From assembly GCA_009392075.1 (NCBI GenBank), contig VFHG01000182.1, forward strand, positions 1 through 12,517: a stretch of DNA of 12,517 nucleotides, given 5' to 3'. This document shows, in pieces, positions 7,769 through 10,253 of this stretch (position 1 is its first letter; each line of letters opens with the position of its first letter). Under the pieces are notes generated by a model, which saw only the letters and a list, made by a program, of their open reading frames with translations, was not told the DNA's origin and searched no databases. The position numbers and the translations under genes are program-made. Source of the stretch: SAR202 cluster bacterium (GTDB lineage: Bacteria > Chloroflexota > Dehalococcoidia > UBA3495).

Positions 7769-8172
7769 AACGGGGTCGAGCGCAAGTCCTATCTGCTCAA
7801 GCAGTCGATTTACGACGTTTTGGGACTGGTCCGCATCATCGAAACGATGTATGAAGGCCCGCCATACTGGACTCGGGAATCATCCAGAGAATGGCCCGCC
7901 TGTTCTGCAAGCACGCCGACAATCTCGACACCGGCCCCAATGACACAGAGCAAGACCTGCTATGTCTCATGTCTGAAGGATATGACGACGGCCAATTGCC
8001 CGAAACACTCCGCCTAGACGGCCAACAGGTGATGGAGTGCTGAGAATCTATATATAGAAAATCCGGCCTCAATCAAGGGACTGATTACGAACTGCGGATG
8101 ATGGCAGTCAGACGATTCGTGAGCCAGATCCACAAGGCCCCATTAACCGATGCCTACCGGGCTGTGAGTTAG
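7769..8172 (+). pseudogene. Frame-broken coding remnant of unknown family
   Basis: Three protein-like segments line up. Codons starting at 7769 read VERKSYLLKQSIYDVLGLVR then IIETMYEGPPYW. A change of frame near 7855-7880 is needed to continue as ILDSGIIQRMARLFCKHADN, then MSEGYDDGQLPETLRLDG up to MEC at 8038-8040. A TGA at 8041-8043 interrupts, and the same frame continues ESIYRKSGLNQGTDYELRMM and RRFVSQIHKAPLTDAYRAVS to TAG 8170-8172. No start codon or ribosome site precedes the first segment, since a TAA stands at 7766. I do not recognise the family. The segments have amphipathic, natural-looking composition unlike the flanking frames. Most likely a decayed gene with one frameshift and one nonsense change; two or three unrelated short frames is the alternative. 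The bases 7688-7768 before it are AT-rich and show nothing. Confidence 0.45.
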
Positions 8173-8816: not shown

Positions 8817-9692
8817 ATGGACATCGGCATCGCCTTATTGATGACCCAGCACGATTTCAACACCATAGGCCTGGCCCGGCTGGTTGAAGAGCTGGGTTTC
8901 GAATCCCTCTGGGCGCCGGAGCACGGCATAGTTCCCGTCGATTTCAAGGTGGACCCACCGCTGGGCCAACAGGGCGGCGTACCCCGGTTTTACACCGAGG
9001 GCGGCATCAACCAGATCGTTGACCCTTTAATATTTCTGGCCGGGGCTGCGGTCGCAACTACCAAGATCAAATTGGGCACCGGAATCTGCTTGGTGCCGGA
9101 GCGCAATCCCATCCGCCTGGCCAAGGAAGTGGCGACGCTGGACCAAATATCGGGCGGGCGGTTCCTATTTGGCGTGGGCGCGGGTTGGCTGAAAGGCGAG
9201 TCTGAGATTCTCGGCGTGGACTTCCCACACCGTTGGAAGCAGACCCGGGAATATGTGAACGTCATGAAGGAACTGTGGACCACCGATGTAACTGAGTATC
9301 ACGGCGAATATATCGATTTTCCACCGTTGGTCTGTTCTCCCAAGCCGGTACAGAAGCCACACCCGCCCATCTTCGTGGGAGGCGAGTTGGAAAGCGCCGC
9401 TCGCCGCATCGCCAGCTACGGCGATGGTTGGCTTCCCAGGGCACGCAATACCTCCCGGTATCAGGACCCGGACAAGCTGTCTGGTGCCCGAAAACACATC
9501 GAGGAATTGATGACTGCCAGAGGCCGAGACACGTCGGCTTTCAACATCACCATGTGGGACGCGCCCCCCGACCGGGAGATGAACCAGCGGTTCTCCGACG
9601 CTGGGGCCAACCGGGTGGTCCACATGCTGAACACCACCAACGAGAAGTCGGCCCATGAAGACATCGAGCGGGTGGCCGAAGCGGTTCTGTGA
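8817..9692 (+). CDS. Luciferase-like oxidoreductase, F420-type branch
   Basis: A 291-residue luciferase-like monooxygenase of the shorter branch that includes many predicted coenzyme F420-dependent oxidoreductases; whether this one uses F420 or FMN cannot be decided by eye. Landmarks: DIGIALLMTQHD (2-13), SLWAPEH (30-36), KLGTGICLVPERNPIRLAKE (85-104), then TLDQISGGRFLFGVGAGW (107-124), HRWKQTREYVNVMKELW (138-154), PPIFVGGE (183-190) and ASYGDGWLP (199-207). The start has a strong GGAGGAG six bases upstream. It follows the ferredoxin terminator, so it has its own promoter; TTGACC at 8753-8758 is a possible -35 box but the -10 is poor. The next gene, the OsmC-like selenoprotein, begins 51 bases after its stop and is probably cotranscribed. 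Confidence 0.9.
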   Translation: MDIGIALLMTQHDFNTIGLARLVEELGFESLWAPEHGIVPVDFKVDPPLGQQGGVPRFYTEGGINQIVDPLIFLAGAAVATTKIKLGTGICLVPERNPIRLAKEVATLDQISGGRFLFGVGAGWLKGESEILGVDFPHRWKQTREYVNVMKELWTTDVTEYHGEYIDFPPLVCSPKPVQKPHPPIFVGGELESAARRIASYGDGWLPRARNTSRYQDPDKLSGARKHIEELMTARGRDTSAFNITMWDAPPDREMNQRFSDAGANRVVHMLNTTNEKSAHEDIERVAEAVL

Positions 9693-9743
9693 TCGCAACG
9701 CCCATACACGTTAAATAGCCTAAAAATACATAAGGAGCGACAC

Positions 9744-10253
9744 ATGACAACCGAGTCCGGTCCCAATTACGACCCGTTTCAAGGGGGTGGCAGTCACCGG
9801 TCCATGGTCATCGAATGCGAAGTCGATGATCTGGGAAACATGTTGCGGAGGGCCAAGGTCGGTGGTTTTGAGATAATGTGCGACGAGCCTGAGTCCATCG
9901 GCGGCAGTAACACTGCGCCTGCTCCACTGCATTACTTCGCCGCTTCCATCCTGTTTTGAGAGATGACTCAGATTGAGAGGTACTCTCAATTGATGAAGGT
10001 GAACATCACCAAGGTCAGGGCCGAAGCCTCGGTCCACTTTGACATCACAGGCTCGGTGCTAGCCGGCACCATCATGGCCGGAGCGCCCAAAGTGGAGACT
10101 AGGTACGAGATCGAATCGCCGGACGAACCCGCTAAAGTGGCGGCCATGCTGCGCAACGCCAAGAACGGCTGCTGGGTAAGGGCCGCCGTGGCTAACCCGA
10201 CCCCCTTCGAAGAAACCTTGACGTTGAACGGCCAACCCTTCAGCCTGGACTAG
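9744..10253 (+). CDS. OsmC-family peroxidase with in-frame TGA (probable selenocysteine 72)
   Basis: OsmC/Ohr-family proteins reduce organic hydroperoxides with a reactive cysteine pair. This frame runs 170 codons with one internal TGA at 9957-9959 (codon 72). Before it: FEIMCDEPESIGG (42-54), then APAPLHYFAASILF (58-71), the family's D-E-P-x-x-x-G-G and P-x-P-L-x-Y-x-x-A motifs, which lead straight into the peroxidatic cysteine. After it, in the same frame: EMTQIERYSQLMKVNITKVR, then GSVLAGT, and NAKNGCW with Cys143, 71 residues on, at the place of the resolving cysteine. The TGA thus stands exactly at the active-site cysteine, and a SECIS-like hairpin follows (9972-9990). The ATG at 9744 has AAGGAG upstream; the ATG at 9963 after the TGA has no good ribosome site. 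A TGC-to-TGA nonsense mutation is the alternative. The neighbouring flavin enzyme may be a peroxide source (inference). Confidence 0.8.
9972..9990 (+). promoter_or_regulatory. Candidate bacterial SECIS element in the OsmC-like gene
   Basis: ATTGAGAG (9972-9979) and CTCTCAAT (9983-9990) form a perfect 8-bp stem around the loop GTA. The stem starts 12 bases after the in-frame TGA (9957-9959), close to the 11-base spacing of the Escherichia coli fdhF element, and the apex reads GGTAC, with the G-U needed for SelB recognition. It lies inside the coding frame, as bacterial SECIS elements do. The fit is by eye; no folding energy was computed. Confidence 0.7.

Follow-up and report, generated by a model that had tools for sequence, protein, structure and literature searches.

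We analysed a 12,517-nucleotide contig (VFHG01000182.1, assembly GCA_009392075.1; hereafter the window) from a SAR202 cluster bacterium, and find that positions 9744–10253 of its forward strand hold a single OsmC-family gene whose codon 72 is TGA. Judged by comparison with related sequences, this gene very probably encodes an OsmC-family redox protein (OsmC_like_Se) in which selenocysteine (Sec) replaces the catalytic cysteine, with the UGA at 9957–9959 decoded through the action of SelB and Sec-tRNA-Sec on a hairpin in the message. In the proposed mechanism, SelB together with Sec-tRNA-Sec would bind this hairpin, 12 nucleotides downstream, and the ribosome would thereby read the UGA as Sec. 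The assignment corrects a gene that is stored as halves in the databases.

The gene and its reading frame

Two open reading frames, 9744–9959 (71 residues) and 9963–10253 (96 residues), lie in one frame and are separated solely by the TGA at 9957–9959. When this codon is read through, the product is a protein of 169 residues with Sec (U) at position 72 and a cysteine at position 143 (TGC, 10170–10172), the candidate resolving residue, and it ends at a TAG stop codon (10251–10253). The ATG at 9744 is preceded by a Shine–Dalgarno-like AAGGAGC (9732–9738). The preliminary description of this DNA had joined the two frames into one OsmC-like gene, and the join holds. The protein matches the PF02566 profile with 51.6 bits (gathering score 27.5) and the NCBIfam model NF041052, OsmC_like_Se, with 165.9 bits (curated cut-off 95); residues 72–75 read UEMT, in agreement with the UxxT motif published for OsmC-like selenoproteins. 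An AlphaFold2 model computed with the family alignment (predicted local distance difference test score, pLDDT, 91.6) matches OsmC and Ohr structures in Foldseek and VIA-align comparisons, and this predicted fold, together with the PF02566 score, places the protein in the OsmC superfamily.

Conservation of the TGA codon

We then compared the gene with its counterparts in 250 genomes of the same order, drawn around the nearest genome compared (G001). There were 91 OsmC matches in 81 of these genomes. Codon 72 is TGA in 86 of the 91, the window not being counted, and these 86 are spread over 78 genomes; the remaining five carry TGC and are distant homologues. Eight loci from named metagenome-assembled genomes (MAGs) all have TGA at this codon. 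Seven of the eight span the protein completely or almost so and are 67–97% identical to it, and the eighth, L008, spans 73 residues. The titles of the seven give Dehalococcoidia, Chloroflexi or SAR202 MAGs; L008 is a 3.8-kb contig from a bin labelled Gammaproteobacteria, and is perhaps misbinned. Some rows are near-copies: the proteins of L045 and L046, from two genomes, are the same, and L001–L007 recur within the order sample. L046 (G216:C59) encodes the same protein as a genome of another genus, and may likewise be misbinned. G001 itself, which is 84% complete, gave no OsmC match.

The TGA form extends beyond the order. In a sample of 400 genomes from the phylum, searched at E 1e-10, there were 52 matches, and 28 of them contain a TGA. 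Among the 28 phylum loci that were inspected, the TGA is at the equivalent place in 23 (21 from other classes and two from the same class) and absent from five. The 28 TGA-bearing matches comprise these 23, two that correspond to L103 and L118, and three (in G439, G470 and G401) that lie outside the count. A tblastn search against plasmids returned 12 records, at 22.9–31.8% identity.

The expectations that close relatives would share the TGA and that more distant homologues would have cysteine at the peroxidatic place, as the aligned TGC and Cys forms do, were both borne out. The column of Cys143 is cysteine in 86 of 87 TGA rows and in 88 of 92 rows overall, and is invariant across the 61 rows of the alignment described below as A1. 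In L049, which is the L006 gene of a UBA2158 MAG, codon 144, a Trp codon in the window, is a second in-frame TGA immediately after the resolving cysteine, by point mutation, error or decay. L110 (in G066) is a second OsmC copy with TGA, with another TGA near its end and Ser replacing the resolving cysteine; its hairpin reads GATAC as against GGTAC, and the copy is perhaps decaying.

Among close relatives, synonymous codon differences outnumber amino-acid-changing ones past the TGA, as judged from the aligned genes. The window and L045 differ by 25 synonymous and one amino-acid-changing codons after the TGA (11 and three before it), and the window and L047 by 37 and six (20 and six before it). 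For the more distant L061, the values after the TGA are 34 and 26.

A hairpin downstream of the TGA

An 8-bp stem (9972–9979 paired with 9983–9990) closed by a GUA loop (9980–9982) starts 12 nucleotides past the TGA on the same strand. The hairpin had been noted from the window alone, and its coordinates are confirmed. By itself it is modestly stable (z −1.75; 11 of 200 shuffles were equally good), and it is the comparison with relatives that takes it beyond chance. We measured covariation in a set (A2) of 64 of the 87 TGA rows, without gaps and with mutual identity below 93%, from which L128 and L130 had been excluded beforehand; A1 is the same set without three rows that have extra stops (L049, L103 and L110). 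In A2, the covariation score of the eight pairs was 0.429, compared with 0.146 in shuffled alignments, 81.1% of cells were paired (61.2% shuffled) and 87 cells were altered on both sides (28.7 shuffled); none of 500 shuffles reached any of these values. Versions of the hairpin slid along the alignment scored at most 0.144.

Consistent with this, stems of at least five contiguous pairs were found in 95 of 110 TGA rows, compared with 23% of shuffles, which in this search preserved base composition only. A stem of at least five pairs at the offset seen in the window, with a loop beginning with G, was present in 69% of TGA rows and 0.5% of shuffles. Codon usage is also constrained. The loop G is the third base of the Arg79 codon, which is CGG or AGG in 85 of 86 cases, compared with 270 of 718 Arg codons elsewhere in these genes, and Tyr80 is TAC in 74 of 74 (257 of 359 Tyr codons elsewhere). 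Among the Cys rows, ten in total, the best stem of the orthologue L143 at the hairpin place has two pairs, and seven others have three or four.

A hairpin just past the TGA whose small apical loop contains G is the form given for bacterial selenoproteins in passages of the Sargasso Sea survey (PMC1088965), and the in-frame TGA aligns with the cysteine of homologues, as also expected of such genes. We refer to the element as a selenocysteine insertion sequence (SECIS)-like hairpin. An Rfam scan of the window gave nothing at the hairpin and three sub-threshold matches elsewhere, and the SECIS assignment therefore rests on the comparison and not on a library model.

Selenocysteine machinery in related genomes

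The machinery for Sec insertion was surveyed in eight related genomes, and most of them have it. A tRNA-Sec with a TCA anticodon was found in seven of the eight, SelA in seven, SelB above its cut-off in six, and SelD in seven. Every copy of SelD has an in-frame TGA, and we think that SelD in these seven genomes (L029–L035) is for this reason probably a selenoprotein itself. The SelB signal in G001 is only a 140-residue C-terminal match. Passages of a published study of sponge symbionts report that SelA and SelB co-occur in most bins, and SAR202 bins are listed there (PMC5649159).

SelA was also considered as a discriminating test. It is present in 71 of the 78 order genomes with the TGA gene and in 130 of the 172 without it. 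Because it is general in the order (201 of 250 genomes), it discriminates weakly.

Gene neighbourhood and predicted function

We compared the neighbourhoods of 27 loci (the window, L002–L007 and L166–L185). A luciferase-like flavin monooxygenase gene (PF00296; 8817–9692, forward strand) ends 51 nucleotides upstream of the OsmC gene, and has the same place in L002, L003, L004 and L006. The monooxygenase context to which the preliminary description drew attention is therefore real, but is conserved only among close relatives, and so says little about function. A peptide-binding (solute-binding) protein is encoded downstream in the window and in L002–L006. Judged from sequence, a long CarB-like gene lies just upstream in L179, L180 and L181, and an ABC-like gene lies downstream in L169 and L171. 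Because the neighbourhood is kept only in close relatives, we propose no partner. Further upstream in the window, a gene at 7769–8166 (forward strand) appears decayed, with pieces in two frames plus a stop, in contrast to the OsmC gene. Its pieces match open reading frames of 182–231 amino acids in L002, L004 and L006, with the look of a response regulator.

By analogy with the OsmC/Ohr family, we lean towards an antioxidant role in which the protein would reduce an organic hydroperoxide or a similar oxidant. The Sec selenolate would attack the peroxide, the resulting selenenic acid would be resolved by Cys143, and the resolved form would then be reduced by a cellular dithiol. The OsmC fold and the retention of both redox positions favour this role over that of a Sec redox protein of another kind, such as a thiol-disulfide or reactive-sulfur enzyme. 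Such an enzyme is nevertheless a possibility to be taken seriously, if a somewhat doubtful one: no Ohr-specific model is among the NCBIfam matches of the protein at E 0.01, its closest solved relative by sequence is an OsmC-like protein (3cje), and the loci share no partner gene.

Selenocysteine and cysteine forms

A tree of 95 proteins was built from the 61 A1 rows, 25 of the 28 phylum loci (without L154, L155 and L157), four of the five TGC rows (without L135) and the database proteins P0035–P0039; P0040 and the database forms with Gly or Trp were excluded. It holds 81 Sec and 14 Cys proteins and requires at least five changes of label, of which well-supported branches force four. Six of the Cys rows (P0035–P0039 and L143) nest among Sec rows. 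Because it was rooted at its midpoint and has several long branches, the tree itself is compatible with either direction of change; repeated change from Sec to Cys seems to us the likelier one. There is, in our estimation, about an even chance that Sec is ancestral or long-standing in the phylum of the window, kept with its hairpin down to about 27% protein identity, and that several independent replacements by Cys were followed by loss of the hairpin. Such loss is seen in DNA for one case, L143. If this is true, the selenoprotein lineage would be of unusual durability, and its members would form a natural series in which to ask what keeps Sec in place.

Other residues occur at the Sec place in database proteins, namely Trp in P0033 and P0034 and Gly in P0002, P0003 and P0006. 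We considered these as natural variants and rejected the idea. The Trp proteins share 98.6% and 99.3% of their residues with the TGA loci L112 and L111, and are for that reason likely to be gene calls made under translation table 4; the Gly proteins, 83–86% identical to L045–L047, may be calls made under table 25. In P0040, which is 52% identical to L129, both redox residues have been lost together: Glu stands at the Sec place, and Ser replaces the resolving cysteine.

Alternative explanations for the in-frame TGA

Several observations weigh against decoding of the TGA as Sec or against parts of that proposal. Further stops, named beforehand as a sign that would speak against it, are present, albeit in four of the 86 TGA copies and in other genomes (L049, L103, L110 and L130). 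Two of the five covariation measures were not above shuffled values (double-change pairs, 6 compared with 5.8; further pair types, 16 compared with 14.1). Fewer than five contiguous stem pairs were found in 15 of 110 TGA rows, ten of which share a single A–A mismatch, and the distant Cys rows L163 and L164 show stems of eight and six pairs, at other offsets. G005, a 78% complete genome, has the TGA gene and SelD, and neither SelA nor SelB above the cut-off; its sole match to the tRNA-Sec model above the cut-off is a tRNA-Ser according to ARAGORN. In the phylum set, SelA does not separate the forms, being present in 22 of 23 TGA genomes and 10 of 11 no-stop genomes (Cys was observed in five of these 11). 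Finally, no partner gene is common to all 27 loci, and the neighbourhood points to no substrate.

The extra stops, and the decayed-looking gene nearby in the window, would fit an OsmC gene carrying one premature stop, either as a pseudogene or through an assembly or sequencing error. This explanation is very improbable, because the identical TGA recurs in 86 other matches from many independent assemblies, synonymous changes exceed amino-acid changes past it, and the downstream hairpin covaries.

A second alternative is that the locus encodes two proteins, an N-terminal one of 71 residues and a C-terminal one of 96 residues that starts at the ATG at 9963. The ATG lies three bases past the TGA, and the second half has been deposited alone as a protein in databases (P0004 and others). 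The split would fall inside a helix (residues 61–83) of the predicted fold and would remove the catalytic residue, members of the LLTQ type have no ATG right after the TGA, and by eye there is no well-spaced Shine–Dalgarno-like site before 9963. We consider two separate products highly unlikely.

Genome-wide reassignment of UGA to Trp or Gly, which the Trp and Gly database proteins might suggest, is extremely unlikely, because TGA is the terminator of the window gene at 8817–9692 and of 27 of the 87 OsmC genes that bear the internal TGA, homologues have Cys at the place of codon 72, relatives have tRNA-Sec, SelA, SelB and SelD, and the Trp proteins fit a table 4 translation of TGA loci.

Comparison with known systems

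Ohr and classical OsmC hydroperoxide reductases have a two-Cys active site, and the modelled window protein shares their fold. The best solved relative by sequence is the OsmC-like protein of Jannaschia sp. CCS1 (3cje), which has an aligned CxxT and a cysteine at the resolving place; it differs in having Cys for Sec, and is 29% identical over 100 aligned residues. The other OsmC and Ohr structures compared are 11–19% identical to the window protein. All 61 A1 rows match NF041052 at E 0.001, and no defining difference from that family is apparent from the name and description of the model; NF052637 is matched by three of the 61, with a best E of 1.5e-4. With Cys and Sec forms in one tree, the family provides pairs of enzymes on which the benefit of selenium to an OsmC-type active site could be tested.

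The Sec-containing family is already known. The preliminary description correctly placed OsmC-like selenoproteins in marine surveys. The relevant passages describe three UxxT sequences from the Sargasso Sea in 2005 (UxxT is given in Table 3 of PMC1088965) and apparently five sequences in the Global Ocean Sampling (GOS) survey (PMC2398784), and two reviews list the family (PMC9312934 and PMC13188914). Within the open-licence PubMed Central (PMC) literature, we found no paper linking SAR202 with a selenoprotein and two, one of them the sponge-symbiont study cited above, linking it with selenocysteine. As far as those survey passages go, the sequences are like the present ones in belonging to COG1765/PF02566 and in having UxxT and a SECIS element whose small apical loop contains G. 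The passages give their three and five sequences without a host lineage, whereas the 86 TGA matches here come from 78 genomes, all of one order. The addition made here is this wide distribution. A family of selenoproteins for which the surveys gave only a few marine reads is common in this order, 78 of the 250 genomes having the TGA form; the members of the order that bear names here are MAGs labelled Chloroflexi, Dehalococcoidia and SAR202.
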